From Bryopsis sp. KO-2023 (lineage: Eukaryota; Chlorophyta; Ulvophyceae; Bryopsidales; Bryopsidaceae), in contig BSYQ01000009.1 of the NCBI GenBank assembly GCA_030272585.1, forward strand, positions 4,092,001 through 4,156,000: a stretch of DNA of 64,000 nucleotides, given 5' to 3'. The position numbers and the translations under genes were made by a program. The notes under the pieces were generated by a model. It searched no databases, was not told the DNA's origin, and worked only from the letters and a program-made list of their open reading frames with translations. Below, in pieces: positions 40,633 to 64,000 of the stretch (within the stretch, counting starts at the first letter, position 1; each line of letters starts with the position of its first letter).

Positions 40633-40833
40633 ATGAACGCGGCATCCCAAACGAACCAGAAGCCGGAGGATTTTGGAGCAGCTTTGGCGGGGCCGTGTTG
40701 GAAGGCAGCAGTATACAGACAGTACGCTTTCTGGACCTCTAACAACGATTTCGACGACGCAGAAAGCACAGCCTCAAACGACCCACAGGACGAACCGGCC
40801 AAGGACGACGAACCGGCCGAGAACGACGAATGA
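40633..40833 (+). CDS. Small upstream ORF overlapping gag
   Basis: A 66-codon frame starts at ATG 40633 and its stop overlaps the gag start as ATGA (40830-40833). The product is acidic at the end (DEPAKDDEPAENDE). Such an overlap would allow termination-reinitiation to feed ribosomes into gag. Alternatively the frame is an accidental leader ORF, or the true gag starts here after a frameshift. Confidence 0.4.
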   Translation: MNAASQTNQKPEDFGAALAGPCWKAAVYRQYAFWTSNNDFDDAESTASNDPQDEPAKDDEPAENDE

Positions 40834-42938: not shown

Positions 42939-43422
42939 CCCCAAACCACGTCGCCTTAACCGATTTGGTCACCTCCACGGGAGGAGTGCTGCCACAGAAC
43001 TGGAACTGTGGCAGCAGTGCAGTAATGATTGTGGTGAAGGAGCAGTCCTGCCACAGCAGGGTTTTTTATAATAATTTGTCAAGGTTTCTAAGGGCAGTTG
43101 GGTAGTAGTTAGACCGTCCATTTGTTAGGTTCAATAAGGGTTAGTAAGGGTTATTATAGGTCAAAGAGGTAGCTAGGTTGTAGCTGAAGTCCATTGGGGC
43201 TGAAGCTACAGTTTTTGTATTTATAAAGCACCTCTGAACATATTCGATGTAAGCTCTCTTTTTGTTCGAGTGTTTGTCTTCCCCTATCCGACCTTTGCAC
43301 ACTACCACGTTCAACCACGAGCCCTTAGGCTCTTTTCCGTTCTCCCCACGATCAGTCCCTCCGCAGGGGTGACCCAATAGGGAGAGACGACGTCATTTGT
43401 TGGTTTCGGAGCCAGGTTACAG
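42933..43422 (+). mobile_element. Family A repeat, copy 1 (solo LTR or MITE-like)
   Basis: It starts CTGTAACC and ends GGTTACAG, an 8-bp terminal inverted repeat inside longer imperfect inverted ends that share ACGTCG and GGTCACC/GGTGACC blocks. Internal marks are an 11-bp hairpin (TGCTGCCACAG/CTGTGGCAGCA), a second hairpin CCTGC-CACA-GCAGG followed by T6, a TATA-like TATTTATAAAGC and TTTTTGTTCGAGTGT downstream. Unlike the other copies, 14 bp identical to the retroelement primer-binding site (TGGTTTCGGAGCCA, 43401-43414) stand just before the terminal octamer. It interrupts gag. Confidence 0.8.
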
Positions 43423-43522
43423 CGTTCTGGAGAACTTAAGTTTTCGTGGGAGACTACTCCAAAGACTACAAGGAAGAATGGCGGGGATACCATCACCATC
43501 TCTGGATAAGATATGTCGATAT
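43423..43522 (+). mobile_element. Retroelement leader fragment between repeats A and B
   Basis: About 100 bp follow the primer-binding-site-like 14-mer and include an ATG with a short open frame (MAGIPSPSLDKICRY). They look like the leader and gag start of an LTR element, cut by the family B repeat. Confidence 0.4.
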
Positions 43523-44128
43523 GTGTAACCCCAAACCACGTCGCCTCGACCAATTTTGTCACCTCCAGGGCTAGAGTGATATCAGGGGAGGGAATGCTGC
43601 TTGAGGCAGTCCCAGACGGATTACGTAGGGCTAGCAGTCACCCCGGGACAGTTCTGCCATAGCAGTTCCGCCACAGTTTAGAGGTAGCAGTTCAGCTACA
43701 GGGTTGACTAGGTTGGACAGTCCTAGGGATTGGTACTGAGGGAGTGGACTTAGGGTGGTTAGAAAGATCAGTTAGGCTTGATGGGTTAGGTTGTCTTAAT
43801 CAGTAGGTGGGATCCTAGGCGATCAATGGGACAAGGGTGAGTCAGGCTGCAGCCTATTTAAACGGCTGATCTTAGGGTATTGTACTTCTTGGTGCGGATC
43901 TTCTGGGTTAGGTTCTTGTGTTTTGTTCGAGTGTGGACCTTTTGATTGTTGTAAGAAAGCTTTTGGGAAGAGACCTGGGTAAAGTGCCTTGCAAAGGCCG
44001 TGTGATCAAGTTCAAGAGGGGCTGTCCCCACTTCTGCCGTTCCATTCCTGCAAAAACGCCTCCACAACCGTTAAGTCCAGCTGCAGGGGTGACCCCAGCG
44101 GTCAGGACGACCCCATTTGTGGTTACAC
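43523..44128 (+). mobile_element. Family B repeat, copy 1 (606 bp)
   Basis: It is bounded by GTGTAACC and GGTTACAC. Its ends align with those of family A (CCCCAAACCACGTCGCCT at the start; GGTGACC, then ACGACC and TTTGTGGTTACA at the end), while the interior differs. It carries CTATTTAAACGG (TATA-like, near 43854) and TTTTGTTCGAGTGT, a 14-mer shared with A. A reverse-oriented copy is at 60132-60738. I see no target-site duplication here. Confidence 0.75.
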
Positions 44129-44261
44129 CTGTTAAAAAACGGAAAAACCAAGACTGAACCCTCCACAAAAACCCCTGCCAAACCATGGAATCTGGAACAG
44201 ATCCAATTTGCATCAGAAACAGATTCAGATCCAGGTTGCAGAAAAAAAGAAGGGAACCACA

Positions 44262-46901: not shown

Positions 46902-46949
46902 GTTCACGGAAACACGGATAATCCGACGCCACGGGCTTTGATGTGGTGC

Positions 46950-47294
46950 CGATCAGGGGAATCGGTAGCCGGACCAGCGATTTGATCGTTGTCGAGTGAT
47001 AATGCGTCGCCGATCATGATCGGCGACGCGCCGATCAGATCGGTCAATTTCCGATCTGATCGGAAACCGCCGATCCCGATCCCGATCCGATCTGGTTTCC
47101 GAGGCAGAACTGGGTGATCGGCCGATTTTGATCGGAAAAGTCGGACCGTTTTTTTTTTATCGGTCCGATTTTGATCGGCGATCGGTCTGATCGGACCGAT
47201 CTTATCGGTGATCGGCTTGATCGGAAACTGCAGGGACCGATCTTGATCGGAGATCGGTTTGATCGATGACCGACATGTCGGCATCGGATCCCTA
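46950..47294. repeat. GATCGG-rich subterminal repeats of the hAT element
   Basis: About two dozen GATC sites, mostly as GATCGG or CCGATC in both orientations, fill this stretch up to the TAGGGATCC terminus. hAT elements commonly carry such subterminal motifs as transposase binding sites. Confidence 0.75.
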
Positions 47295-48503
47295 GTATGT
47301 ACGCGAGTCCTGAAGGATGTCCTCCGGTTCCGGGAAAAACCCGTCCTGACGGTGGAACCGTACGGCGCGCGCGGCCAGGCGGAGGCCGGCGTTATGGGAA
47401 AGGCACGTGAGGTGCTTCCCACAACCGATCACGCGGTCGTAGAGCTCCCTCACCGGCCTCCCCGTGGCCGAGCACGCAGGACATATGGGGATGCCTCCCC
47501 CATCCGCTGGTCCTCCAGTAACCTGGGTTGGAGTCCGGGTCGTCGTGGTCGCCGTTGGGGTGCTTGGAAGTGCCTTTGGGGTATTCGCCGGTTGTGGCGT
47601 GGAGGTTGTGTCGACTGACGTTCCTCCACTTTCGTCCTGGATGACCGTCTCAGTAGCCACTGGGACCGGTGTGACGAACTTCCCATGGCGCAGTGGAACC
47701 CTGCTGGGGTCCAAAATGCGATTGCGCTTTGTCCTGGGGCGGTTTGGAACTGGAGACGTCACTGGAAGTGGCTGTCCCAATTCCGCTGGTGGTCCCTCGT
47801 CGTCACTGCTGGCGCATGTGTCGGGACGAGGTACTGGCGTCACTGGACGTGGCTTGGTGGTGGTCTCGGGTGGTGGAAGGATGCGCGGAGTAGCCAGGAA
47901 GCCGGAGAGTTCCGTTGGTGACAGAAGAGATCTCTCATTGCTCACGTCGCCACTGGGTTGTAATGGCTGGGACGGTGGAACCGTCGGCGCAACCCCGGAA
48001 GCTTCCTGCGCGGGTCGTCCGACCGAAAGGGCATCTGTGCCTGTGGAGAGGGTGACGTCGATGCTGGTCCAAGCCTCCTCGAGGGTCCTGCGAATGCTGG
48101 CCACTCGCTAGTTATCCACCTCGCCTGCGGCTTGTACCACGAGTTTCATCCTCTCCTGGGCGTCCTTCGCGTCGGACTGTCTCAATTTCTTCTCTCGGTT
48201 CTCCCTGTCGAGCGCTCCGCGTTGCAGCATACTCGCCAGCTCCGCCTCCTTCTTTGCGCCCTCGAGCTGACGCTTGACCGTTTCCAATTCCGTCTCGGCC
48301 ACATCTTTTTCTCCTTTGATCTTTTCCAGCTCGGTTTTCAGCTCGTCGACCGTCTTGTCCGCTTTAACCTTCGCCAACTCGGCTTCCAATTCCGTGATCT
48401 TTTTCTCCGCTGATTCCGCCCTCGCAGTTTCCTCCGCCAACTTGCGTTCCAACTCCTCCTTCTCCGTCTGCATATTCTGAGCCATTTCCAGGAAGGTCGC
48501 CAT
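47295..48503 (-). pseudogene. Coiled-coil ORF with in-frame TAG, truncated by the hAT insertion
   Basis: The ATG at 48503 opens 131 codons, almost wholly one coiled coil (EELERKLAEETARAESAEKK; TVDELKTELEKIKGEKDVAE). They end at a TAG (48110-48108) and the same frame continues for 271 codons. The second part is Pro/Thr/Ser-rich and ends with a Cys/His-rich segment (ICPACSATGRP, then CGKHLTCLSHN), before DSRTY and a stop made by the hAT terminus. It may be the Gag-like or extra ORF of a retroelement. It lies 320 bp downstream of the chromodomain Pol on the same strand and could be that element's third ORF or part of another element. The TAG may be a mutation or a readthrough site. Confidence 0.5.
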
Positions 48504-48822
48504 TGCTGCTGTGATTCTTGTCCGAACACGCCTTCTTTTTCGGTTTCCTGCTGTCCCTTTTGCTCTCCGATCTGGTGCTGGTTGATAACAAAGTGCTGGT
48601 AGGTAACCTCCCCGGTTACCCTTCTCTTATTCCCTTACTTTCGCATACGTCACCTCACGGTACGTCTTGACGTGTCGTCCGTCCATGACAGTTCGTACGA
48701 GCTGGAGACACCTCGTCAGACTCGTGGCAGTGAACTCGTTCCGTCCCATACCGGCCATTCACTGGGACGAGCTGACTTTGCACTCAATCCGTCTCCACCC
48801 TCCTCGTACGGGTATCGCTGCT

Positions 48823-51800
48823 TCAGGTACGGTTACGACCACGCGTGCGTCGCGTACGAGCCTCCTTGACGATGAAGTCGGCCAGTAGGTCAGCCGCACT
48901 CGTGAAGTTCTCCTCTGGCTCCCACGTCGCCTCATGTAATGGGTACCCCTTCCATAGTACGAGGTACCTCTTTCGCTTGCCCGTTCCTTTTGATCGAAGT
49001 ATGCTTTCCACCTCGTACTCAAGCTGTCCCGTCAACTCGTCCGTGAAAACTGGTCCTGGTTCGACGTCACGTACGAACTCGGACGAACGACGGAACTCCT
49101 TCAGCTTTGAGATGTGGAACGTAGGATGCAGGCGCCATGTACTCGGTAGCGTCAAACGATAAGCCACCGGAGAGATCACCTTCTCGATCTTGAATGGCCC
49201 CACATACTTTCTTCGAATCTTCGAGGGCAGGTGCTTTGTAATCGCCAGTGGGATGTGTGATGAACGAAGACAGACTTCCTGGCCGACTTGGAACTCGACA
49301 TGTCTGCGCTTCCTGTTCGCGTTCTCTGCCATGCGGTCCTGGGCCAGTTTGTAGTTCTTCTTCGCTTCGTTCATCTCCTCATCCATTCGCGCCACCATTG
49401 CGTCCGCCGCTTCCACAATCGACTTCGGACGGTACACTTCGAGGGCACGAGGGTGCTGGCCGTACATGAGGTAGAACGGCGAATAGCCAGTCGAAGCGTT
49501 CGTAGCGTTGTTAGCTGCGAACTCGGCCGTGTTCAGTAGTTTCGCCCACCCGTCCGGCCTTGCTTCCACGTAGGGACGTAGAAAGTTCTCCAAGGTCCGG
49601 ATTGTAACCTCGGACTGTCCGTCAGTCTGAGGATGGAACGCTGTTGACATCTTCAACGAGGACCCAAGCAACCGGAACAGCTCCTTCCAGAACTGGCTGG
49701 TGAACCTCGGGTCTCGGTCCGAGATGATCACGCTCGGTATTCCGAACGTGGGGAACACATGTTTGAAGAACATGTCAGCGTATCCTTGGGCCGTCACTTC
49801 CTTGGAACACGGGACGAACTTGCAGAACTTCGTGAGCCTATCGACGAATACAGCCACGGCCGTGAACCCCTGGGACTCTGGAAGGTCCGTCATGAGGTCC
49901 GTGGTGACCTGTTCCCACTTGTAGGTGGGGACGGGCAATGGGTTCAGCAACCCCTTCGCCTTGGCGTTGTCCGTCTTCATCACCTGGCACGTGCTGCATG
50001 TTCGAACGTAATGGTCCACGGCCCTTCTCCATCCGCGCCACCAGTACTTTCGGCTCACCAAGTCGGCCGTACGAGCCACCCCAGGGTGACCGGCCATTGG
50101 TATGTCGTGGTGATCGTGTAGAATCACCTGGCGTTTCGTTCGTGGCACCACCACCTTTGGTAGTGCTCCTGGGTTCGGACTGGTGTAGAGAAGCAACCCG
50201 TCCTGACTAAGGGAATAATCAGAAACGGATCCACCAGCCTGCAGTTTGGTACGAATAGAGCTCAGGATCGGGTCTTCCGCCAGTGCATCCTGCCAAGCTT
50301 GAGCCTCCCCGGGCGAGATTTTGGCCTCCGAAATTGCCGAGATGTGGGTGCGCCTGGAAAGCGCGTCCGCGACCACATTACTTCGTCCTGGGATGTACTT
50401 GATGACTGGCATGATGGACTGGAAATACTTGAGCCACCGTGTCTGGGTACGAGACAACACCTTCTGCTGGAGAAAGTGGGTAGCCGGCTGATGGTCCGTG
50501 AGGACGGTGACCCCTCCTGGAGCGCCCTCGAGATAGTGACGCCACTGAGCCAGGGCGTACGAGATCCCGAGTAGTTCGCGCTCGTAAGCCGAGTACTTCT
50601 TCTCGGCCGGGTTGAGGCCGCGACTGAGAAAAGCAACGGGCTGGAGGCCGTCGTCCCCCTCCTGCATCAATGTCGCACCCAACGCGATGTCCGACGCGTC
50701 CGTGACGACCGTGTACGCCTTGGCTGGGTCCGGGATCCTCAGAACTGGGGCCGAAGTGAGCTTCATCTTCAGTTCCTCGAACGCCTGCTGCTGAGGAGGA
50801 CCCCATTGCCATGCGACGTCCTTCTTGACCAACATCTGAATCGGGGCCGCGATGCGTGCGTATTCCCGAATAAAACGCCTGTAGTAGGATACCAGGCGGA
50901 GGAAGCTCCTGACTTCTGCCACGTTCTGTAACGGCTGCCAGTCGCGGACCGCGGAGGTCTTGCTGCGATGCGGCGAAATGCCATTTGCAGTGACCCAGTG
51001 CCCTACGAAGTCCAACTCGGACACAGCGAATGCGCACTTGGACGCTTTCGCAAACAGTCCATGCTCCCGCAGCTTCTCCAGGACGAGTCTCAGATGCTCC
51101 TCGTGTTCTTCCATCGTTTTCGAATAAACGACTAGGTCGTCCAGGAACACGACGAGGAACTGGTCATGGAAGTCCCGGAATATGTCATTTATCATCGACA
51201 TAAACTGGGGCGGAGCGTTTGTCAACCCGAACGGGACTACCTTATATTCGTAATGCCCGTACCGCGTTCGAAACGCAGTTTTTGGTTGGTCCTCCGTTCG
51301 GATTGGCATCTGCCAGTAACCCGAACGGAGGTCGAGTCGACTAAACACCCGTGCGCCTTGGAACCTGTCGAGCAACTCGTCCGGCAAGGGCAGGGGGTAG
51401 CGGTTCTTCACGGTCTTTTGGTTCAGCCATCGGTAATCGATGCAGAACCGCAACCCCCCGTCCTTCTTGGCCGCAAATAAGATGGGGGCTCCCCAGGGGC
51501 TCTTCGACGGCCGGATAATTTCTCGGTCGAGCATGTACTCGGTCTGCTTCTTCACTTCCGCCAGTTCCGCTGGCGAGAGTTTGTACATCGGTCGAAATAT
51601 CGGCTTCGTCCCTGGTTCGAGTTCAATCTCGAATTCGTGCCCGTTTCTTATCGGCGGCGTGCCTTTTGGCAAGTCGGACGCGAAGACTCGTCGGTACATG
51701 TTGAGGAGTCGCTGGATCCCGTCCGGCTGGTCCGGGCGTAAAACTTTGGCCACATCATCGCTGTCATGAACGTCTTTCTTGGTACTGGTTGCTTTGGGCT

Positions 51801-52653
51801 CTGGTCCGGGCTGGTTAGCATCATCTTCATCGTCGACATCGTTGACTACCACCATTACGGCTTCACATTCGCCTCGCTGCATATCTCGTAGAATGAGTGA
51901 TGACGAAGTGGGTATGGCGGTTCCCACACTCAACACCTGTGCCGGCTTGGGCCGCACTGAAAATTTCAGCGGAAGTGTGAGGGTGGCTTGTCCGCGCTTG
52001 ACGCTGATGGTACGATGTCGGAAGTCCAGTGTGGGGTTCTCTGCTACTAGCCAGGGAAGGCCAAGAATGACGTCGTACGCCATGTTCGGGAAGACATCGA
52101 AGTCCGAGCGGAACTGCGTTTCGCCACTCCGGAACTTCGCCCCCGTAATGCGTCCCAGCGTACGTCGCTCCGTCCCGTCCGCCATCACGAGTCGTTTGGT
52201 GTTGGCTCCGTCCATCTTGAGGTCCAGTTCCGCTTGAACTCGTCCACTTACATAATTTTCCCAACTGCCGGAGTCCACATACGCGATTAGTGGACTCCCT
52301 CCTATTTTGATTTTGATCTCAAACCCAGTAAATCGCCCTTGGGGTCCGTCACAGGCTGCTCGTCCCATAAAGTCAAAATTGTCGTCCTGTACGGATCGTC
52401 CCTCGTCCCCAGTTGACGTATCGTCATGGGGTTCCATTCCATTTTCGCTATCGGATACGTCCTGCTCGCCACTTGAAGACGTCTGCAGGTGTGCACTCGT
52501 GTCCGCTTCGCCTGTAGCAACTTCTGTCGCCATTGGCGGTACTTCGGAGTCGGACGGCGTCCATGCTCGCCTCTGCCGCGTCCCTGTGGGACATTCTGGC
52601 TGCTCGAAGTCTAACTCATCATTGTCATCGTCTTGTCGTTCCTCATGGTCCAT
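48823..52653 (-). CDS. pol: Pol polyprotein of a chromodomain Ty3/gypsy retrotransposon
   Basis: An uninterrupted frame of 1,276 residues. After an acidic N-terminus come an aspartic protease (~110-230; [22 protein letters not shown]), reverse transcriptase (~350-540; [41 protein letters not shown], catalytic [11 protein letters not shown]), RNase H ([40 protein letters not shown]), and integrase. The integrase has its HHCC finger ([18 protein letters not shown]) and catalytic D,D,E ([30 protein letters not shown]). The C-terminal chromodomain ([38 protein letters not shown]) marks a chromovirus, whose chromodomain directs integration to marked chromatin. All active-site residues are present, so the enzyme looks intact although its gag is split. 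Its gag tail is 110 bp upstream on the same strand. Confidence 0.95.
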
Positions 52654-52763
52654 ATTTGTTTGTTTGCTCCCATATCTTTGCCTTATTCCCTGGTCCCCTC
52701 CTGCCGTCCCGCTTGCATCGTCGTATCGTCCGTCCGGGACTGACGATGCAGCGTCCCGGACGG

Positions 52764-52872
52764 TCAGTTTATCGCCTTCTTCGCGGCATCATATTTGGGA
52801 CACTCCCTGATCCCATGTCCGCGTTGATTGCACAAAAAACACTGTATGGTACGATTTCGCCCTTGTTGCTGC
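52764..52872 (-). pseudogene. Detached Gag C-terminus with zinc knuckle
   Basis: Read on the minus strand from the family A end, this encodes about 35 residues with a CCHC knuckle (CFLCNQRGHGIREC, C-x2-C-x4-H-x4-C) and a TGA stop. It is the missing end of the Gag at 40830-42938. The frame matches, and the first four bases (GCAG) repeat the last four of the other piece. Confidence 0.8.
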
Positions 52873-53348
52873 CTGTAACCACAAATGACGTCGTCTCTCC
52901 CTATTGGGTCACCCCTGCGGAGGGACTGATCGTGGGGAGAACGGAAAAGAGCCTAAGGGCTCGTGGTTGAACGTGGTAGTGTGCAAAGGTCGGATAGGGG
53001 AAGACAAACACTCGAACAAAAAGAGAGCTTACATCGAATATGTTCAGAGGTGCTTTATAAATACAAAAACTGTAGCTTCAGCCCCAATGGACTTCAGCTA
53101 CAACCTAGCTACCTCTTTGACCTATAATAACCCTTACTAACCCTTATTGAACCTAACAAATGGACGGTCTAACTACTACCCAACTGCCCTTAGAAACCTT
53201 GACAAATTATTATAAAAAACCCTGCTGTGGCAGGACTGCTCCTTCACCACAATCATTACTGCACTGCTGCCACAGTTCCAGTTCTGTGGCAGCACTCCTC
53301 CCGTGGAGGTGACCAAATCGGTTAAGGCGACGTGGTTTGGGGTTACAG
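52873..53348 (-). mobile_element. Family A repeat, copy 2 (476 bp, inverted)
   Basis: A full-length copy with both octamers (CTGTAACC at 52873, GGTTACAG at 53341), in the opposite orientation to copy 1 and nearly identical to it. One side abuts the detached Gag tail; the other abuts the RNase H end of the reverse transcriptase ORF, forming GGTTACAGCTGTAACC. Confidence 0.85.
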
Positions 53349-54845
53349 CTGTAACCCACTTCGTTTCCACTGTGAAGTACTCCGAATTTCATACCATCTA
53401 CTCAAATGATCAGCCACAAAATTGGCTTTCCCATCTATGTGTTGTACGGAGATACTCGAACAACCGCTGAACTGCAAAATTTCTTTGATTCCCGTTACCG
53501 CTCTCAAAGTTCTCAAATCCTGAATAGGTGCTGCTTCTTTCCCCTCTTGGGTGAGGTGAGCCCATAGACTTTTCACTGCCGCCCAATTATCGGAAAAAAT
53601 CTGAACGGCAGTTCCCCTCCACAAATCTGTGGGTATTTCCTTAACGGCGCTCATAGCTGCCAATACTTCCCCCAAGAAACTTGAATGTTGTCCACTTATT
53701 TTTCCGTGTCCGAGGTATAAAATCCTTCCCGATCCATCTGTCAAAATATATCCAAAATACTCTGATGTATCAATAGAAGCCCAATCAACAAACAACTTCC
53801 GTTGAGTATCGCCGGCAGAAAATGCACGGCAATAGCAACGACTCAGCCATTGCGATACCTTACTTTGTAGTTCCGCCTTTATCTCCTGTGGCGGTACTTG
53901 ATTGGCTTCCATCCTGGATAGCAAATGTTGCATGTCCCATTCCAGAGTCGAGTTCTTGAAGGCGTTCAGCAGACCGCGGAGCTGCTGAATTTCCCTCAGT
54001 TCCGCCGTTCCAACCAGTTTAGCAATAGTTTCATTCACTTTTTCCCAAGGTATATCCGGATGAAACTTTCCTTGTTGAATGTGGAATCCGAGAAACTTCA
54101 CCTCAGTTCCACTGACGATTTTCCTTTGGTTGATTTGAAGTCCGTATTCCTTGCATCGAGAAACTATTCTACCGAAGTTCTGGAAGCACTCCTCCACAGT
54201 AGCGCCGCCAATGAGCAGATCATCCATGTAGCGGCGGAACTCCTCCAAACCTTCGAATACCCGGCACATCTTGTCGTTGAATACCCTCACGGACCACGAA
54301 GTGCCGTGGGGAATGGTGCTGTTGACAAACTCTTTGCTCCCCACTTTGAACGCCGTCAATGCCTTGACCTCCTTCTTGATCGGCACTTTATTGTATGCCT
54401 TGGCTATGTCCACGACGATGAAGTACTTCCACTTGCCCGGGATAGATCGCACCAGTCTTCTTGCGTCTTGAATGCCCGGTTGGTGCTCATCGCTGCCGTA
54501 GGTGTTGAGCTTCCTGAAGTCTATTATCGGCCTCGGTCCCTTTCTCCTTTCGCAGTAGCTTATCTGGGATGGATTCCAGTATACGCCGCGAGGATAGTCC
54601 TTCCGTTGCAAAGGTTCTATGAACCCGAGTTCCACCTGTTCCTTTAACCACTCCTTCACTTGTTCCTCGGACAATCTCTGGTCTTGGATGCTCCTTTGGG
54701 GGACGTTCGACTTTGGCGGCTCTCTCCTATAGCCGCACTCCTCCATCGATACCGCTAGTTCCTCCATTTTCGTTTGCTGCGGAGGTATGATCGGGCCGAA
54801 TACCTCCGGGTGTTTCCTCACCATATCCTTTAGTGCTTCTGCCAT
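53343..54845 (-). CDS. Reverse transcriptase/RNase H ORF, 3'-truncated by a family A repeat
   Basis: A frame of 500 residues from ATG 54845; its last two codons lie in the repeat. Reverse transcriptase motifs are clear but not chromovirus-like: RPIIDFRKLNTYG, YFIVVDIAKAYNKVPI (motif A), STIPHGTSWSVRVF (motif B), YMDDLLIGG (catalytic, with Met). RNase H follows: FVDWASIDTSEYFGYILTDG, SFLGEVLAAMSAV, IFSDNWAAVKSL, NFVADHLSRW, with Asp-Glu-Asp-Asp in order. No integrase or further pol follows, because the repeat begins there. It sits 62 bp after the Gag-protease ORF on the same strand and is probably its Pol. The C-terminal third is duplicated at 59252-59644. Confidence 0.8.
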   Translation of the reverse strand: MAEALKDMVRKHPEVFGPIIPPQQTKMEELAVSMEECGYRREPPKSNVPQRSIQDQRLSEEQVKEWLKEQVELGFIEPLQRKDYPRGVYWNPSQISYCERRKGPRPIIDFRKLNTYGSDEHQPGIQDARRLVRSIPGKWKYFIVVDIAKAYNKVPIKKEVKALTAFKVGSKEFVNSTIPHGTSWSVRVFNDKMCRVFEGLEEFRRYMDDLLIGGATVEECFQNFGRIVSRCKEYGLQINQRKIVSGTEVKFLGFHIQQGKFHPDIPWEKVNETIAKLVGTAELREIQQLRGLLNAFKNSTLEWDMQHLLSRMEANQVPPQEIKAELQSKVSQWLSRCYCRAFSAGDTQRKLFVDWASIDTSEYFGYILTDGSGRILYLGHGKISGQHSSFLGEVLAAMSAVKEIPTDLWRGTAVQIFSDNWAAVKSLWAHLTQEGKEAAPIQDLRTLRAVTGIKEILQFSGCSSISVQHIDGKANFVADHLSRWYEIRSTSQWKRSGLQL

Positions 54846-54907
54846 GGCTTCTTTGTCTTGTTCGGATCTAGTTAGGCCCGTCCGAAGTCCCCTTTCGACG
54901 GGCCTTT

Positions 54908-56890
54908 CTAGTTTGATACCTCCCGGTCATTGAACTTGACGGGTCCCTCGTGCACGAAAGTCGCAACCTTGTAGTTGCTCGGCAATTGGACGGGCAGGTC
55001 ATTCCAATTGCTGATTTGGACGCGGAGGTACTGACCCTTATAATTCAATCCTGCATGAATGGCGATACTGCCATTCGGAACGACTGGACTGAGCTCGATC
55101 TCCTTGGATGTCTTGATCGGTATCCAAATCGTGGAGAGTGAATGCGGCTTGAGCACCAAGTTTCTCCCCAGAGGTACAGAATAGCGATCCTTTGCAACGT
55201 TGACAATCTTGAGATGTCGTTTGGCGGAAGTCAGCTCCACACTCTCTTCGTCCGTTTTCTCCCTTTCTGGAAGCACTACTTCCTCAGGCAATCTTGTGAC
55301 CATGCATTGGAGAGTTTTTCCAGATCCTATGTGGATCTTCTTCCTTCGAACATCGATCACGGCGTTCAACGAGTTGAGAATAGGCATGCCGACCAACAGC
55401 TCGTATCCGGGCTCCTTCATCACGTAAAAATCCGCGGAAACCTTCTTCCCCTCGGTTCCTATCTTGATGGAAGAAATGCTGCCTTCAGTGTCCACAGTCC
55501 GGCCATCAGCCGTTCGAATTTTACTGGGTGCTCCTTCTTGCTTTGGCGACACCCCCAATCTTTTTGCCAGATCCGTGGAAATCACATTGACGGCTGCTCC
55601 CGTGTCGATAATAGCGAATTCTTCCACACTTTCTGCGGCTGTAGACACGAGAGACATCTTGGTTGTCAGGAGTCCTGCTGATTTTCCCACAGTCAAAACT
55701 TCCTTGTAAGTTTTGGTCTTCAAAATCCCTCCGGTTTCAGGACTCTTGGAACTCCTTGTTTGCTTTGGTCCACTGGTTGGGTTCCCACGGCGGTACTGGG
55801 TTCTCTCGGACTTCTTCCATTTCCTCGTCGGCACTTTTGCCACAGGCACGGCAGAAATGGTCCCGACATAGTTTGTCTCGGGCTGATAGAGATCTTCTTC
55901 TTCCAATCCTTCAAACTCGTTGTTGTCTTCGAATTGGGGTTCATCGAATTGAACGGTTCTCGTAGGCATTCCACGATACGGCGTTCCTCCTCTTCTGAAT
56001 CCACCTCCGTTGTTCCTGAATCCGCTGTTGCCTCCGCTTCCGCCGCCGCCGCTCTTTGCCAACCAGCTCAAAAACCCTTTGAATCTTCGATCTCTCTTAC
56101 TCAATTGAGTGATGAAAAACTTGAGAGAGCCAAACGGTACCTCTTTCAGCTTTTGTTGCCAATCGGTCTGCGGAAGTTCTCCTTGTCTCACCGGCGATTC
56201 CTTTTCTGCAGGTGCTGTAGTCTCGCCTACCGCTCCAATGTCCATTGCGTCCCCTTGGAGTTTCGCTGTTGTATCTTCGAGGCGAAACACGTTGATGATC
56301 CATTCCTTTGCGTTTGCGATAGCGTCTACATATGTGGCGGTCACCATTGCTGCCGTTCCGACTCTGCAATCCTTTGGAAGTAGTTTGAAGAAAATTTCTT
56401 TTATTTTCGCATCATCCACATCCTGTTCCACTGCCATTGCTTCTTGGCGAAACTGCTCGATCCACTGCAGCCACGTTTGCCCCTTTTTCTTGACACATTT
56501 GCGAAGGACTGCTTCCTTTTCTGAAGGACTCTCCAAGATAGCTCTTTCCGTTACGAGAAATCCTGCCACGTTCATCTTTAACGCATCAATATTTCCAGCC
56601 ACTGCTGCTGGAGAAGCTGCGGGCCTCCCGTGTGATCCTGGAGGATACGCTGCGTCGAAGTCGGCCATCAGAACATTGTTAACTTCGTACAGTATTGCCA
56701 AAATATTCTCTCCGGGTCCTTCTGGGACATAGTGGTCCACCACTGATGCGCAGAACTGCTGATATGTCGCGTAGATCCTTGAGCGCTGAAACGCATACCG
56801 AAAATTTCTGGAAGTGATAGTCTCATATCTGTAACCACTCCCCTCCTCCCTTGACTTTTGTCCCCAAAAGTTAAACTCAACCTCCCCCAC
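54908..56890 (-). CDS. Gag-protease ORF of an LTR retroelement
   Basis: An open frame of about 660 residues. Gag-like N-terminal half (SRIYATYQQFCASVVDHY; QTWLQWIEQFRQEAMAVEQD), then a Gly/Arg-rich basic linker (SGGNSGFRNNGGGFRRGG) instead of a zinc knuckle, and a retropepsin-type aspartic protease (FAIIDTGAAVNVISTDLAKR; YELLVGMPILNSLNAVID). No ATG lies at the start: the frame is open from a TAA upstream and the first usable codons are GTG or other non-AUG codons, or a 5' exon is missing. It contains a natural GGTTACAG (56829-56836) at codons ~18-20, the site where the second copy at 60739 is broken. Confidence 0.75.
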   Translation of the reverse strand: MGEVEFNFWGQKSREEGSGYRYETITSRNFRYAFQRSRIYATYQQFCASVVDHYVPEGPGENILAILYEVNNVLMADFDAAYPPGSHGRPAASPAAVAGNIDALKMNVAGFLVTERAILESPSEKEAVLRKCVKKKGQTWLQWIEQFRQEAMAVEQDVDDAKIKEIFFKLLPKDCRVGTAAMVTATYVDAIANAKEWIINVFRLEDTTAKLQGDAMDIGAVGETTAPAEKESPVRQGELPQTDWQQKLKEVPFGSLKFFITQLSKRDRRFKGFLSWLAKSGGGGSGGNSGFRNNGGGFRRGGTPYRGMPTRTVQFDEPQFEDNNEFEGLEEEDLYQPETNYVGTISAVPVAKVPTRKWKKSERTQYRRGNPTSGPKQTRSSKSPETGGILKTKTYKEVLTVGKSAGLLTTKMSLVSTAAESVEEFAIIDTGAAVNVISTDLAKRLGVSPKQEGAPSKIRTADGRTVDTEGSISSIKIGTEGKKVSADFYVMKEPGYELLVGMPILNSLNAVIDVRRKKIHIGSGKTLQCMVTRLPEEVVLPEREKTDEESVELTSAKRHLKIVNVAKDRYSVPLGRNLVLKPHSLSTIWIPIKTSKEIELSPVVPNGSIAIHAGLNYKGQYLRVQISNWNDLPVQLPSNYKVATFVHEGPVKFNDREVSN

Positions 56891-58278
56891 TGAACTTCTT
56901 CTGTCCCTGGTCTTTTAGTTGTTAGCTAGTTGTTCCCAGAACTTTTCCAAAAAGTATCAACAAGAAAATCTTTCTCTTAACTGCCTGACTGGCTACTATG
57001 TCTGTAGACGTAGTGCTCAGAAACACAAAACAAGTGCCCACTGTTACTTTTTTTCCACAACAAAACTATCCAAGGATATCAGAATGTGAACTAACAATGT
57101 TGTTCCTCAAACAGGTCCCCCCCTTTCTTCTTAATCACAGCCATCAGCTGTTCTTTGAACCCAGCGGGACTGTTCAAAGAGCACTCGAATGTAAACCAGT
57201 GGTGCTGTACTTCAATCAGTTCCCCCTTTCTTTTTTTTTTTCTCATAGCCATCAGCTGTTCTTTCACCCCTATAGGTCAAAGTGACCGGTTTGTCCCTAT
57301 TTGTCCCTTGTTTATCCCCCTTTTCTTTCCCAGTTCTCTATTGAGCTCAAAAAGTATCAAAAGAAAAATCCTTTTCTTTATCGACTGACTGACTGAATAC
57401 TATTCCTGCAGAAATAATACTCACTAAACGAGATAGAACAAAAACAGAATAAAAACCCACCCACTGCTGCTGCAGAAATACAGCAATACCAAACAAAACA
57501 AACAATACAAGACAAAACACAACAAACCACAAAATACCATATTGTATTTCGCAATCCATCCGTACCACCAGTCAATTGGTCTCCGGATGGTATGGTCGTC
57601 CTTTCCTTAGTTGAACGCCCCACTTCTGTAGAAGTTCTGCCACTTCATTTCTTTCCCCTTTTTCCGCTGTCTTGTTTTCTCCCAAGCTCTCAACGGTATA
57701 TGCTGCCGAAGTGGATGAAGTTCCTTAGGCGCTTTCTCTCTCTCATGCTGCCGTAGCGGATATAGTTCCTTAGGCGCTTTTTAACTCTCTCTGCAGTTAT
57801 GGCACGTCTGCCACACTTGCTCTTCCTCTTTTTGATATATATAACTCTTGCTGCTGTGCAGCTGCTGCACTCTTCTGGCTTAATCCTCTCCCGCCGATGT
57901 GCGCATTCTGTCTGTGGATATCTCGAACCACAGACTATCGTTGTTCCTCATTTGGCACCTGTCGCCATTCTCTTTCTCTGCTCAAGTACTTGAGTGGGTG
58001 AGCATCTCCTGCTACCCTTCAATATCGTCGACTTCTTCTATGCACTTTTGCCTCAGCTTGTCTCCCAGCAGGCAAATCCTTTCTTTCCAAATATTTCATC
58101 TGATCCTTATCCATCCATTGATCCACTTTTTCCCCCTTGACCTTTTGCAACAACAATGGTAGGCAAGAAATATGCAAAAACCTCACAAAATTCAAGTGTC
58201 CCCTACCACTGTTGAGTACTTCCATTGGGACAACAATGGTTGCACCTTGTCAGCTCTGATCTGGGGTTCCATAGTAAA
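56891..58278 (-). other. Leader/degenerate region between pol tail and Gag-protease ORF
   Basis: Minus-strand reading after the pol stop shows traces of an integrase zinc-finger region in broken frames (VWQTCHNCRE, then two PLRQH copies near 57.7 kb). Nearer gag are two polypurine tracts (complements at 57117-57135 and 57222-57244). Each is followed on the + strand by the same 18-mer AGCCATCAGCTGTTCTTT at 57139 and 57247. A second diverged repeat relates 56950-57030 to 57352-57430. LTR borders probably lie here, but I could not fix them. Confidence 0.5.
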
Positions 58279-58624
58279 TCATGGACGAAGCGCTGTGGAA
58301 CCACTGACTATTGGATGGTCCAGCGGAACTGGAAGCCTTGTCAGTGCATCCGCATTTGCGTTACTCTTCCCAGCGCGGAACTCAATCGTAAAATCAAACT
58401 CTTGTAGGCGGAGTGCCCACCTCATCAGTTTCCCCGTCAGTTTGGTACCCGTCATCAACCATTGTAAGGCTCTTTGATCAGTCTGCAGCACAAATTCCGT
58501 TCCGTAGATGTATGGCCGAAATAAGGTGCAAGCCCACACCACTGCTAGGCACTCCCCTTCCACTGCAGAATAATTCCTCTCAGCAGGATTGAGTCTTTTG
58601 CTGGCATAAGCCACCACATGCTCT
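58279..58624 (-). pseudogene. Truncated gypsy pol 3' end (RNase H), left copy
   Basis: About 115 codons starting at HVVAYASKRLNPAERNYSAV and ending at the same stop as the longer copy at 62188. It contains the distal RNase H (FVLQTDQRALQWLMTG, SNANADALTRLP). The upstream part is cut off by the family A-derived module M1 at 58625. Confidence 0.85.
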
Positions 58625-58767
58625 CTGTAACCCCAAACCACGTCGCCTTAACCGATTTGGTCACCTCCACGGGAGGAGTGCTGCCACAGAACTGGGACTG
58701 TGGCAGCAGTGCGGTAATGATTGTGGTGAAGGAGCAGTCCTGCCACAGCAGGGTTTTTTGGTTACAG
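58625..58767 (+). mobile_element. Module M1: 143-bp internally deleted family A repeat
   Basis: It runs CTGTAACC to GGTTACAG. It matches the first ~135 bp of family A through the hairpin and the T6 run, then jumps to the terminal octamer. This looks like an internal-deletion derivative. Confidence 0.85.
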
Positions 58768-59243
58768 CTGTAACCCCAAACCACGTCGCCTTAACCGATT
58801 TGGTCACCTCCACGGGAGGAGTGCTGCCACAGAACTGGGACTGTGGCAGCAGTGCGGTAATGATTAAGCTCAAGGAGCAGTCCTGCCACAGCAGGGTTTT
58901 TTATCATAATTTGTCAAGGTTTCTAAGGGCAGTTGGGTAGTAGTTAGACCGTCCATTTGTTAGGTTCAATAAGGGTTAGTAAGGGTTATTATAGGTCAAA
59001 GAGGTAGCTAGGTTGTAGCTGAAGTCCATTGGGGCTGAAGCTACAGTTTTTGTATTTATAAAGCACCTCTGAATATATTCGATGTAAGCTCTCTTTTTGT
59101 TCGAGTGTTTGTCTTCCCCTATCCGACCTTTGCACACTACCACGTTCAACCACGAGCCCTTAGGCTCTTTTCCGTTCTCCCCACGATCAGTCCCTCCGCA
59201 GGGGTGACCAAATCGGTTAAGGCGACGTGGTTTGGGGTTACAG
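58768..59243 (+). mobile_element. Module M2: 476-bp family A repeat with perfect 41-bp inverted ends
   Basis: Positions 58768-58808 and 59203-59243 are exact reverse complements, from CTGTAACCCCAAACC to GGTCACC. Other A copies have a diverged right end, so here the right end has been replaced by a copy of the left end. Loop bases of the internal hairpin also differ slightly from copy 1. Confidence 0.85.
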
Positions 59244-59652
59244 CTGTAACCGAGCTTTGACAGATGGATCGGGGAGGATTTTATACCTCGGACACGGAAA
59301 AATAAGTGGACAACATTCAAGTTTCTTGGGGGAAGTATTGGCAGCTATGAGCGCCGTTAAGGAAATACCCACAGATTTGTGGAGGGGAACTGCCGTTCAG
59401 ATTTTTTCCGATAATTGGGCGGCAGTGAAAAGTCTATGGGCTCACCTCACCCAAGAGGGGAAAGAAGCAGCACCTATTCAGGATTTGAGAACTTTGAGAG
59501 CGGTAACGGGAATCAAAGAAATTTTGCAGTTCAGCGGTTGTTCGAGTATCTCCGTACAACACATAGATGGGAAAGCCAATTTTGTGGCTGATCATTTGAG
59601 TAGATGGTATGAAATTCGGAGTACCTCACAGTGGAAACGAAGTGGGTTACAG
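59244..59652 (+). mobile_element. Module M3: captured RNase H fragment bounded by the octamers
   Basis: It starts CTGTAACCGAGC and ends GGTTACAG. Between them is a ~400-bp fragment nearly identical to the C-terminal RNase H of the ORF at 53343-54845 (ALTDGSGRILYLGHGKISGQ to ADHLSRWYE), here on the + strand. The right junction with family A is identical to that at 53348, so the two junctions share one origin. The left joint lies in mid-codon context. Confidence 0.85.
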
Positions 59653-60131
59653 CTGTAACCCCAAACCACGTCGCCTTAACCGATTTGGTCACCTCCACGG
59701 GAGGAGTGCTGCCACAGAACTGGGACTGTGGCAGCAGTGCGGTAATGATTGTGGTGAAGGAGCAGTCCTGCCACAGCAGGGTTTTTTATCATAATTTGTC
59801 AAGGTTTCTAAGGGCAGTTGGGTAGTAGTTAGACCGTCCATTTGTTAGGTTCAATAAGGGTTAGTAAGGGTTATTATAGGTCAAAGAGGTAGCTAGGTTG
59901 TAGCTGAAGTCCATTGGGGCTGAAGCTACAGTTTTTGTATTTATAAAGCACCTCTGAATATATTCGATGTAAGCTCTCTTTTTGTTCGAGTGTTTGTCTT
60001 CCCCTATCCGACCTTTGCACACTACCACGTTCAACCACGAGCCCTTAGGCTCTTTTCCGTTCTCCCCACGATCAGTCCCTCCGCAGGGGTGACCCAATAG
60101 GGAGAGACGACGTCATTTGTTTGCTCCTTCA
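59653..60131 (+). mobile_element. Module M4: family A repeat with altered right end
   Basis: It is collinear with family A from CTGTAACC to GACGTCATTTGT. The terminal GGTTACAG is missing and is replaced by TTGCTCCTTCA before the next CTGTAACC. Confidence 0.8.
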
Positions 60132-60738
60132 CTGTAACCACAAATTGCGTCGTCCTGACCGCTGGGGTCACCCCTGCAGCCGTACTTAACGGTTGTGGTA
60201 GCGTTTCTGCAGAACTGGAACGGCAGAAGTGGGGACAGCCCCTCTTTAACTTGATCACACGGCCTTGCAAGGCACTTTTCACTCAGGTCTCTTCTCAAAA
60301 GCTTCCTTACAACAGTCCAAAGGTCCAAACTCGAACAAAACACAAGAACCTAACCCAGAAGATCCGCACCAAGAAGTAGAATACCCTAAGATCAGCCGTT
60401 TAAATAGGCTGCAGCCTGACTCACCCTTGTCCCATTGATCGCCTAGGATCCCACCTACTGATTAAGACAACCTAACTCATCAAGCCTAACTGATCTTTCT
60501 AACCACCCTAAGTCCACTCCCTCAGTACCAATCCCTAGGACTGTCCAACCTAGTCAACCCTGTAGCTGAACTGCTACCTCTAAACTGTGGCGGAACTGCT
60601 ATGGCAGAACTGTCCCGGGGTGACTGCTAGCCCTACGTAATCCGTCTGGGACTGCCTCAAGCAGCATTCCCTCCCCTGATATCACTCTAGCCCTGGAGGT
60701 GACAAAATTGGTCGAGGCGACGTGGTTTGGGGTTACAG
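60132..60738 (-). mobile_element. Module M5: family B repeat, inverted copy (607 bp)
   Basis: A reverse-oriented copy of the B repeat at 43523-44128, bounded by CTGTAACC and GGTTACAG. Point differences are scattered, for example in the 3' end where ACGCAATTTG replaces ACCCCATTTG. Its right side joins the retroelement gag at the natural octamer (60739). Confidence 0.85.
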
Positions 60739-62534
60739 CTGTAACCACTCCCCTCCTCCCTTGACTTTTGTCCCCAAAAGTTAAACTCAACCTCCCCCAC
60801 TGAACTTCTTCTGTCCCTGGTCTTTTAGTTGTTAGCTAGTTGTTCCCAGAACTTTTCCAAAAAGTATCAACAAGAAAATCTTTCTCTTAACTGCCTGACT
60901 GGCTACTATGTCTGTAGACGTAGTGCTCAGAAACACAAAACAAGTGCCCACTGTTACTTTTTTTCCACAACAAAACTATCCAAGGATATCAGAATGTGAA
61001 CTAACAATGTTGTTCCTCAAACAGGTCCCCCCCTTTCTTCTTAATCACAGCCATCAGCTGTTCTTTGAACCCAGCGGGACTGTTCAAAGAGCACTCGAAT
61101 GTAAACCAGTGGTGCTGTACTTCAATCAGTTCCCCCTTTCTTTTTTTTTTTTCTCATAGCCATCAGCTGTTCTTTCACCCCTATAGGTCAAAGTGACCGG
61201 TTTGTCCCTATTTGTCCCTTGTTTATCCCCCTTTTCTTTCCCAGTTCTCTATTGAGCTCAAAAAAGTATCAAAAGAAAAATCCTTTTCTTTATCGACTGA
61301 CTGACTGAATACTATTCCTGCAGAAATAATACTCACTAAACGAGATAGAACAAAAACAGAATAAAAACCCACCCACTGCTGCTGCAGAAATACAGCAATA
61401 CCAAACAAAACAAACAATAAAATACAAAACACAACAAACCACAAAATACCATATTGTATTTCGCAATCCATCCGTACCACCAGTCAATTGGTCTCCGAAT
61501 GGTATGGTCGTCCTTTCCTTAGTTGAACGCCCGGCTTCTGTAGAAGTTCTGCCACTTCATTTCTTTCCCCTTTTTCCGCTGTTTTGTTTTCTCCCAAGCT
61601 CTCAACGGTATATGCTGCCGTAGTGGATGAAGTCCCTTAGGCGCTTTCTCTCTCTCATGCTGCCGTAGCGGATATAGTTCCTTAGGCGCTTTTTAACTCT
61701 CTCTGCAGTTATGGCACGTCTGCCACACTTGCTCTTCCTCTTTTGATATATAACTCTTGCTGCAGTGCAGCTGCTGCACTCTTCTGGCTCAATCCTCTCC
61801 CGCCGATGTGCGCATTCTGTCTGTGGATATCTCGAACCACAGACTATCGTTGTTCCTCATTTGGCACCTGTCGCCATTCTCTTTCTCTGCTCAAGTACTT
61901 GAGTGGGTGAGCATCTCCTGCTACCCTTCAATATCGTCGACTTCTTCTGTGCACTTTTGCCTCAGCTTGTCTCCCAGCAGGCAAATCCTTTCTTTCCAAA
62001 TATTTCATCTGATCCTTGTCCATCCATTGATCCACTTTTTCCCCCTTGATCTTTTGCAACAACAATGGTAGGCAAGAAATATGCAAAAACCTCACAAAAT
62101 TCAAGTGTCCCCTACCACTGTTGAGTACTTCCATTGGGACAACAATGGTTGCACCTTGTCAGCTCTGATCTGGGGTTCCATAGTAAATCATGGACGAAGC
62201 GCTGTGGAACCACTGACTATTGGATGGTCCAGCGGAACTGGAAGCCTTGTCAGTGCATCCGCATTTGCGTTACTCTTCCCAGCGCGGAACTCAATCGTAA
62301 AATCAAACTCTTGTAGGCGGAGTGCCCACCTCATCAGTTTCCCCGTCAGTTTGGTACCCGTCATCAACCATTGTAAGGCTCTTTGATCAGTCTGCAGCAC
62401 AAATTCCGTTCCGTAGATGTATGGCCGAAATAAGGTGCAAGCCCACACCACTGCTAGGCACTCCCCTTCCACTGCAGAATAATTCCTCTCAGCAGGATTG
62501 AGTCTTTTGCTGGCATAAGCCACCACATGCTCTC
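60739..62534 (-). repeat. Right copy of the 1.8-kb direct repeat
   Basis: The second copy of 56829-58624. On the minus strand it runs from inside RNase H of the pol at 62188-64000, through the leader with the twin polypurine tracts, to the first ~20 codons of the Gag-protease ORF, where module M5 begins. Confidence 0.9.
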
Positions 62535-64000
62535 TCCCTTGCTCATCCTTTTGACAGAGTACTGCCCCCACAGCCTGGCTGCTCCAGTCTGTTTGCAGAA
62601 TGTATGGTAGGTGTGGCTGTGGTGGAGCCAGGACTGGTTGATCGGTAATGCTTTTCTTCAGCCTCTCAAATGCTTGTTGGTGGCGTTCCCTCCATTCAAA
62701 TGGCACATCCTTCTTCAACAACTCCGTCAGAGGTGCAGCGATCCTTGCATAGTCGCGCACAAATCTCCTGTAGTAAGAAGTAAGGCCCAGGAAGGACCGC
62801 AAAGTAGACACATCCACCGGTGGCTCCTGCATCTCCACTGTGGCTACCTTCTTCGGGTTCATTTTGATTTCCCCTTTCCCCACGATGTGGCCCAAGTACA
62901 GCAGCTCCTCGAACCCGAAGTCCGATTTCCTCGGGCTGATCCTCAGGTTGGCCTCCTTCAACCGCTGCAGCACTTCTGCCAATATCTCCTGATGCTTCTC
63001 CCAGGTTTCCGCATAGATGATGATATCATCTAGATACACGATCACTCCCTTCCAAAGCATTGGACCTAGCACCTCGTTCATCATCCTCTGGAAGGTCGCT
63101 GGGGCGTTACTGAGCCCGAAGGGCATCACCACGAACTCATAAAGCCCCTCCTGAGTGATGAATGCCGTCTTTTCTGCTGCAGCAGGACTCATCCTGACCT
63201 GCCAGTACCCCGACCGCAGATCCAGTGCGGTAAAGTATTTGGCCTCCGAAAACTGGTTGATCGCGTCCTCTATCCTTGGGAGGGGAAAGCTATCCCGGGT
63301 GGTCACCTTGTTAAGCTTGCGGTAATCGACGCAGAACCGCACCGACCCATCTGGCTTTGGGACTAGGACGATCGGTGAGGCCCATGGGGACTTCGACTTC
63401 CGCACCACTCCGTCCAGGAGCATCCTCGCCACCTCCGATTTTACCACCCGGTTCTCCGCGTAACTGAACCTGTAGGGGTTCTGCCTGATGGGGGGATGAT
63501 CTCCGGTGGGGATCTCGTGGTATAGGATGTTGGTTTGCCCGACTTGATCCGAGGACCAAGCACAGGCATCCGGGTATTGCTGCAGAAGATCCAGCAGCTC
63601 TTTTTTTTGGTGGGGGGTAAGATGGGGACTAATTTTCAGTTCTTCCAGTTTTTCTCTAAGTGACACCTTTTCTTTTCTTTCCTTTTCTGTGGCAAACGTT
63701 TTATTTTCTACATCAGAAGTCCCAAGGGGAACCACCCCTGCCCAAATCTGGTTTTCCTGCAGCTGAACTGCTGTCTGTCCCATTTCTTTCAACCCAAACT
63801 TTTCTTTTCTTTTTCCTTTTTCTTTCTTTTCTCTTCCCAATTCTTTTTCAGCTGCTTCCCCTTCCCTTGAATTTTCCCTTCTTTTCTTTTCTTCTTCCCC
63901 TTTTATCTCTTGTCTCACCAGAATTTCTGCTTCCACTGTTTTACTATGGTTCAAACACTGCATGGCCCATGAGTCTGGCCACAGACTTCTGGCCCTTTCT
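62188..64000 (-). CDS. pol: Ty3/gypsy Pol (reverse transcriptase-RNase H), continues past the window
   Basis: Open from the right edge to the stop at 62188, about 604 codons; the 5' part is outside the window. A very charged Lys/Glu-rich linker (EEKKRRENSREGEAAEKELG) precedes the reverse transcriptase: [52 protein letters not shown], catalytic VIVYLDDIIIYAETW, then the connection (SFLGLTSYYRRFVRDYARIA) and RNase H (LQTDWSSQAVGAVLCQKDEQ; YSAVEGECLAVVWA; LQTDQRALQWLM; NADALTRLP). The integrase that normally follows is absent or degraded beyond 62188. It differs from both other reverse transcriptases in the window, so three lineages are present. Confidence 0.9.
   Translation of the reverse strand, partial: ERARSLWPDSWAMQCLNHSKTVEAEILVRQEIKGEEEKKRRENSREGEAAEKELGREKKEKGKRKEKFGLKEMGQTAVQLQENQIWAGVVPLGTSDVENKTFATEKERKEKVSLREKLEELKISPHLTPHQKKELLDLLQQYPDACAWSSDQVGQTNILYHEIPTGDHPPIRQNPYRFSYAENRVVKSEVARMLLDGVVRKSKSPWASPIVLVPKPDGSVRFCVDYRKLNKVTTRDSFPLPRIEDAINQFSEAKYFTALDLRSGYWQVRMSPAAAEKTAFITQEGLYEFVVMPFGLSNAPATFQRMMNEVLGPMLWKGVIVYLDDIIIYAETWEKHQEILAEVLQRLKEANLRISPRKSDFGFEELLYLGHIVGKGEIKMNPKKVATVEMQEPPVDVSTLRSFLGLTSYYRRFVRDYARIAAPLTELLKKDVPFEWRERHQQAFERLKKSITDQPVLAPPQPHLPYILQTDWSSQAVGAVLCQKDEQGREHVVAYASKRLNPAERNYSAVEGECLAVVWACTLFRPYIYGTEFVLQTDQRALQWLMTGTKLTGKLMRWALRLQEFDFTIEFRAGKSNANADALTRLPVPLDHPIVSGSTALRP

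Follow-up and report, generated by a model that had tools for sequence, protein, structure and literature searches.

The junction palindrome of a repeat array in the green alga Bryopsis sp. KO-2023 proves to be a regular part of retrotransposon anatomy, and its neighbourhood reveals LTR (long terminal repeat) pairs whose two members end differently. The DNA analysed, the window, comprises 64,000 nucleotides (GenBank assembly GCA_030272585.1, contig BSYQ01000009.1, positions 4,092,001 to 4,156,000; C9:4092001-4156000 in our contig numbering), and the array lies at 58625-60738. The palindrome, made of GGTTACAGC followed by TGTAACC, is the ordinary boundary between the internal tail and the 3' LTR in a group of gypsy-like retrotransposon families. 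The 3' LTRs of these families carry seven terminal bases, GGTTACA, that the 5' LTRs lack; the octamer at the module ends thus marks an unusual finishing of retrotransposon ends, and for the copies read this anatomy is solid. The best reading, to which we give a probability of roughly 0.6, is that joined LTR-LTR ends would serve as the integration precursor, that the palindrome formed at the junction would be cut by the integrase of one family, C, and that two further elements, G1 and H, would be mobilised by it in trans.

A search of the genome (91.1 Mb in 28 contigs), which an earlier note on the window had called for, returned 123 occurrences of the palindrome, against 0 for the reversed pattern used as a control. 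All 15 loci that were read have the same structure, with a purine-rich tract ending in GGTTACAGC, the internal tail of the element, meeting a 3' LTR that starts with TGTAACC, and they comprise at least five LTR types. The first 22 LTR bases are common to families A, B and C and to two more LTR types, one base differing in some B copies. A further LTR type has another purine tract, GGGGGGGAAAA, before the same GGTTACAGC (locus L003, 1501-1516). Within the window the palindrome occurs at 53341, 58760, 59236, 59645 and 60731; a search allowing up to 2 mismatches gave these 5 matches, all exact, versus 0.01 expected.

One example of the end structure is G1, a family A element. Its 5' LTR (A1, 42934..43400, + strand) has the U5 end ATTTGT and is directly followed by a primer-binding site (PBS)-like sequence, TGGTTTCGGAGCC (43401..43413, +), while its 3' LTR (A2, 52874..53347, -) terminates in GGTTACA and adjoins the tail GGTTACAGC (53348..53356, -), the two forming the palindrome at 53341-53356. 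The same asymmetry is found across the sample, which comprises the 40 best-scoring of 210-220 candidates per family (A, B, C) plus the palindrome loci. Counted once per genome position, these give 95 matches, 90 of them with both ends readable; the others are M1 (truncated), L006 (diverged), L023 and L039 (locus ends) and a B piece in L085. Among LTRs starting at genomic flank, 39 of 40 end in ATTTG(T/G) straight into the PBS TGGTTTCGG (16 A or A', 13 B, 10 C), and 49 of the 50 that start after GGTTACAGC end in GGTTACA at the flank (19 A or A', array module M2 included, 16 B, 14 C). The sole exceptions, both within the window, are B43524, with a flank start and a GGTTACA end, and array module M4. 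No sampled LTR has the tail before it and the PBS after it. The family A LTR measures 467 bp plus 7 and that of family B about 597 plus 7, and the pattern departs from Ty3/gypsy elements, in which both LTRs have the same TG...CA ends. U5/PBS borders matching ATTTG(T/G)TGGTTTCGGAGC number 108 genome-wide, and a PBS-like site beginning with TGG is conserved in these families.

Where the inserted DNA stops is given by the target-site duplications (TSDs). For 32 LTR pairs, chosen by position and orientation, the 6 bp before the 5' LTR equal the 6 bp after GGTTACA in 31, and the remaining pair differs at one base; flanks of non-partners match in 6 of 992 comparisons, owing to recurring 6-mers such as GTCGGG. 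Because the duplications lie outside GGTTACA, these seven bases belong to the inserted DNA. In G1 the duplication is GGCAGC, at 42928..42933 (+) and 52868..52873 (-). The earlier note had named as a refutation of its own proposal that the octamer might be the end of an ordinary LTR family whose nested insertions carry normal duplications, and this is largely what the perfect 6-bp pairs reveal. Short duplications of constant length are also what a Ty3/gypsy affiliation leads one to expect. Their pattern is symmetric, approximately S-Y-Y-R-R-S; position 4 is a purine in each of the 31, and GTCGGG was used at several insertions.

Two other classifications were rejected on these grounds. The 476-bp repeat is not a miniature inverted-repeat element or other transposon with terminal inverted repeats (TIRs), since it is an LTR paired around a protease-reverse transcriptase (RT) body. 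Nor is any module a TIR-bounded unit with its own duplication: LTRs pair around internal regions, and among the sampled copies B43524 alone combines a flank start with a GGTTACA end, the 6-mers at its sides being different. A split-direct-repeat (DIRS/PAT-like) organisation was dismissed because of the 6-bp duplications; retroelements with a tyrosine recombinase (DIRS, Ngaro, PAT) are not known to make a target-site duplication. No tyrosine recombinase domain turned up in the open reading frames (ORFs) scanned with Pfam.

The asymmetry is renewed with each insertion. LTR bodies are without any difference in 28 of the 32 pairs (the count of the pair L030/L019, where two neighbouring LTRs share the flank GTCGGG, was not used), and therefore both the insertions and the asymmetry are recent. 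In reverse transcription the U5 of the right LTR is copied from that of the left, with the PBS directly following. As the left LTR has no terminal GGTTACA, each new copy must acquire it. GGTTACA is preceded by the base with which U5 ends in the respective family, T in A, B and C and G in subfamily A', whose 5' LTRs end in ATTTGG and whose 3' ends read ATTTGG-GGTTACA; GGTTACA is therefore added at a fixed joint in every new copy. An extra base occasionally stands at this joint (in 6 of 48 ordinary 3' ends, a count without M2 and M4), being T in L044, L002, L059 and L075, C in L008 and A in L004, and the B piece in L085 likewise has an extra T before GGTTACA. T is the first base of the PBS, and in L044 it cannot stem from the A tail, which has G there. 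In L085 (604-761) the PBS of an A' element is immediately followed by the B-type LTR, which likewise terminates in GGTTACA.

The conserved GGTTACA that is available at a DNA end is the one in the tail before U3, and the simplest source of the right-hand copy would be these 9 bases, reached across an LTR-LTR junction. We envisage that plus-strand synthesis starts 9 bases before U3, so that the raw DNA would have GGTTACAGC-TGTAACC at its left end and ...ATTTGT at its right end. Joining of these ends, most likely as a 2-LTR circle, would give ATTTGT-GGTTACA-GC-TGTAACC, a junction that recreates the palindrome GGTTACA^GC^TGTAACC and could be cut by an integrase into two processed ends. The family C integrase would cut after CA on both strands, removing GC, and both ends would be inserted with a 6-bp stagger; the right end would thereby gain GGTTACA and the left end lose GGTTACAGC. 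Integrase 3' processing usually leaves a 2-base 5' overhang beside CA. In support of joined ends, the GGTTACA joint sits at the U5/PBS border in A, A', B and C, and three aberrant joints of the array, two exactly at GGTTACAGC and one at ATTTGT+T, coincide with the raw ends expected. Family A has another GGTTACAGC behind the PBS (window 43415-43423). We considered this as the origin of the right-hand GGTTACA and rejected it, given that it is absent there from the copies of A', B and C that were read.

In an alternative scenario no joining takes place: the 3' end of the plus strand folds back, anneals to the LTR start through an imperfect TIR and copies TGTAACC. LTR start and end are indeed complementary, imperfectly, over about 41 bp in A, B and C, and the right end of M2, an inverted copy of the LTR start, suggests that such copying can occur. 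On the other hand, fold-back gives no reason to keep GGTTACAGC before U3, where it precedes 49 of the 50 GGTTACA-ended LTRs whose start was read (the exception is B43524) and likewise the five LTR types at palindrome loci. In addition, when the final 13 U5 bases are compared in register with the LTR start, 6 (C), 10 (A) or 8 (B) of them agree, yet the added end is identical in all three families, and in ordinary ends U5 retains its sequence as far as GGTTACA. We consequently regard fold-back priming as improbable. Much the same holds for a jump in which the reverse transcriptase leaves the U5 end and resumes at the opposite end of the cDNA, yielding a linear substrate with an extended right end. 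The extra base at 6 of 48 joints would fit terminal addition and the joint is otherwise precise; against this stands an argument from economy, namely that the integrase would have to remove 9 bases from one end and 2 from the other, whereas a joined palindrome needs one symmetric cut. We therefore judge such a jump unlikely as well.

Several points weigh against joined ends as the precursor. A search for an integrated LTR-LTR junction gave 0 matches in the genome, hence no direct trace of the intermediate, and circles or free cDNA are predicted forms here. Fold-back copying of the imperfect TIR could also add GGTTACA. Two patterns recovered no tRNA gene matching the PBS, and the end counts come from the best-scoring LTRs and the palindrome loci. 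That A and B would use the family C integrase is read from their shared ends, and other gypsy elements with an integrase in this genome are possible sources of the enzyme. Finally, in the retroviruses studied the linear DNA, and not the circle, proved to be active (PMC11054761).

The integrase itself is found intact in family C alone among the elements examined. With 12.2-13.1 kb between five paired LTRs, family C has RVT_1 and RT_RNaseH followed by H2C2 and rve (Pfam), the gypsy-type domain order, and its integrase retains D152, D211 and E246 in one open frame. Among solved structures its best match is the integrase of prototype foamy virus (PFV; E 4.8e-23). Thirty-seven integrase matches share one score; proximity to the palindrome was checked on contigs C1-C5, where all palindromes were listed, and there 18 of 18 have one 1.5-4.2 kb downstream, the 19 others being on later contigs. 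In L067 (2957-6100) the family C integrase ORF runs on into a long extension that has no Pfam matches.

G1 and H differ in this respect. G1 has a gag-protease ORF (54908..56829, -; protease by Pfam, gag by position) and an RT ORF with RVT_1 (53343..54926, -) that runs into the 3' LTR; the start of its gag is read at 43478, on the opposite side of an inversion described below. The labels gag and RNase H are ones that we presume for G1 from position and motif. Pfam detected no integrase domain in G1. The RT-RNase H ORF of H (62188..63999, -) is 97% identical to family C over 458 aa and is accompanied by a broken integrase remnant (61454..62038, -), a second one being located at 57542-58129. In tblastn comparisons the H integrase contained stops and was without the part bearing the second catalytic aspartate in 9 of the 9 bodies looked at. 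From these sequences we infer that G1, with no integrase, and H, with a broken one, may be mobilised in trans by the family C enzyme.

Integration from joined ends has a history in retroviruses. In the 1980s it was disputed whether integration proceeds directly from joined LTR ends, as in the circle-junction model that Panganiban and Temin put forward for spleen necrosis virus (Cell 1984). Evidence for linear DNA displaced this model and, for the retroviruses studied, decided the dispute (PMC11054761). That model shares with ours integration from an LTR-LTR junction, an internal copy of the junction being claimed to be used (PMC11054761); in the families described here, the copied ends in themselves argue for a joined precursor, and the internal copy occurs naturally. 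A proposal for foamy viruses kept the question open, PFV integrase being reported to cut the palindrome of the 2-LTR junction in vitro, on both strands and after CA (PMC1180852), and HIV-1 integrase is also reported to cut its own junction palindrome (PMC1905944). The end structure described here would fit a 2-LTR circle of the foamy virus kind, and the likeness extends to the integrase, whose best solved relative is that of PFV. The two systems differ in that the accessible part of the PFV study describes no 7-base difference between integrated LTRs (PMC1180852), whereas here the right end holds bases absent from the left LTR, and in that PFV cutting is biochemical, while cutting in the present families is predicted from sequence.

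Compared with Ty3/gypsy elements, the likenesses are the order of RT-RNase H and then integrase (family C), a PBS-like site, a purine-rich tract and a short TSD; the differences are a 5' LTR without a final CA, whose right end falls 7 bases short of that of the 3' LTR, and a conserved 9-base spacer between the purine tract and U3. A literature search, whose coverage left out most subscription journals, found no description of such unequal ends in the LTR pairs of retrotransposons. Joined ends would explain simply why the palindrome is conserved. If they are indeed the precursor, the genome itself would record evidence on the choice between circle and linear DNA, in that almost all sampled copies have end bases absent from their left LTR, and these retrotransposon families offer many young copies together with a testable enzyme.

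The window also contains a rearrangement in which the internal palindrome may have taken part. B43524 (43524..44127, +), a B-type LTR with terminal GGTTACA (44121-44127), is identical over 597 bp to the 5' LTR L046 and forms the left breakpoint of a segment read as inverted (43524..56829, strand undefined, inferred from duplication pairs), which holds B43524, a hAT element, pol2, the 3' part of gag2, A2 and the G1 body. It is preceded by GATATG (43518..43523, +), inside the gag of G1, and followed by CCTGTT (44128..44133, +). The second GATATG (56824..56829, -) comes after R (56830..58625, -), the 3' part of an H element whose tail GGTTACA runs straight into it with no 3' LTR, and the other CCTGTT flanks the 5' LTR L046, which ends at C9:4176276. 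Of 11 other loci with an A-type 5' LTR, 10 have the GATATG site intact, and L032 has no exact match. We do not take B43524 for a simple solo-LTR insertion, because the 6-mers on its two sides are not alike and have their counterparts at two separate distant sites. Ordinary solo LTRs, a frequent outcome of recombination in other genomes, are absent from the sample.

We put forward that an H provirus stood at CCTGTT, that its internal palindrome was cut, and that both new ends were inserted at GATATG about 13.3 kb away, which would invert 43524-56829 and account for all four joins. On this view the inversion would have arisen through use of the internal palindrome as an attachment or integration site. 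Such events look rare: the exact tail is found without the following GC-TGTAACC at 2 places, R and C7:5444972, where a B LTR start stands directly after it, in a search whose patterns miss diverged tails and whose backward control gave 1 match. Alternatively, homologous recombination between two H LTRs could have inverted the segment, with a 3' LTR lost between its GGTTACA copies. This predicts a second B LTR and a second partial H body on the far side, and both are there (M5 and the body preceding it). However, over 597 bp B43524 has the very sequence of L046, and M5 departs from either one at 18 of 596 positions; one integration-like event explains GATATG and CCTGTT together, whereas recombination needs an extra precise deletion; and the tail without GC-TGTAACC occurs at those 2 places only, against a control of 1. 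Recombination is a possible account to which we give less than even odds. Non-standard end pairs that lead to rearrangements, including inversions, are reported for alternative transposition of Ac/Ds (PMC8225341, PMC3744419); these are DNA transposons, whereas here the pair would be the tail and the 3' LTR start of one retroelement. A wider proposition, namely that the LTR-LTR junction is the obligatory substrate, that the right-end bases come from the left end, that the internal palindrome is usable and yields inversions, and that the integrase is shared in trans, is one we advance tentatively, at slightly less than even odds.

The array at 58625-60738 can now be interpreted. As the earlier note had described, five segments (143, 476, 409, 479 and 607 bp) adjoin head to tail; all start with CTGTAACC and four end with GGTTACAG, the exception being M4, which ends with TTGCTCCTTCA. 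Their contents are likewise as described there, a deleted A repeat, a full one, changed ends and an inverted B repeat. M1 (58625..58767, +) is an A LTR truncated at position 134 and joined to GGTTACAGC, and M2 (58768..59243, +) is an A LTR whose right end is the LTR start in inverted copy. M3 (59244..59652, +) consists of a 397-bp piece of the G1 pol gene end plus the tail GGTTACAGC. Its description as a captured RNase H fragment holds as regards the pol gene end; RNase H is a name that we take from position and motif, Pfam having found RVT_1 alone in the ORF behind M3. M4 (59653..60131, +) is an A 3' LTR ending in ATTTGT+T and joined to inverted A-LTR interior, and M5 (60132..60738, -) is an inverted B LTR, the 3' LTR of an H element, preceded by the H tail GGTTACAGC (60738..60746, -) and a second H-type body (R'), and thus a tail/3'-LTR boundary of H on the minus strand. 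M3 and M4 are not independent modules, because 59256-60120 is an inverted copy of 52881-53745 (99.3% identity); M4 is the LTR that follows the tail of M3, i.e., one element end. The M1|M2 joint and, inverted, the M2|M3 joint break exactly at GGTTACAGC, where the preceding base differs from that of the A tail; these two joints and the ATTTGT+T end of M4 resemble raw ends that were joined at other places. Overall, the array is a local accumulation of family A and B copies, nested in one another, truncated or aberrantly joined. On either side of it lies a copy of the same 1.8-kb gypsy segment (56829-58626 and 60739-62535, 98.9%), a pair that the earlier note does not mention.

The earlier note had seen in the array a cassette-like assembly of modules by a recombination recognising mainly the octamer. 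Both octamers are common to four of the five modules, and the internal palindrome seemingly once was an integration end. Nevertheless, every module is an LTR or a fragment of an LTR retrotransposon, the palindrome is a tail/3'-LTR boundary at 15 of 15 loci, complete insertions are surrounded by 6-bp TSDs, and M3-M4 is one duplicated element end, so that we find cassettes barely credible. What survives of that proposal is the octamer as a recombination end, since GGTTACA is added at a fixed joint and use of the internal palindrome as an integration end best accounts for the inversion. Integron gene cassettes are not matched, the modules being LTRs and element fragments (a recombinase gene was not searched for). 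An assembly chimera of the array and its surroundings is also very unlikely: repeats of 96-100% identity do lie close together here, yet several array joints are of kinds found in unlinked copies too, and the genome-wide end asymmetry would be unaffected.

Further insertions and rearrangements surround these elements. To the right of the window, a complete H-type element with the TSD GGTAAT occupies 66318-74997 in extended coordinates (L083, L084), its LTRs being 78% identical to B, and a deletion apparently fused two H bodies on this side. To the left, the GGCAGC duplication of G1 lies in the gag of a chromodomain gypsy element, which the insertion and the inversion have split into 40743-42933 (+) and 48823-52873 (-). 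Rejoining the short flanks of GGCAGC keeps the gypsy gag frame open, and the rejoined frame contains what we take to be a zinc-knuckle-like motif. The hAT element of the inverted segment comprises a transposase ORF with a C-terminal dimerisation domain (44262-46616, -).
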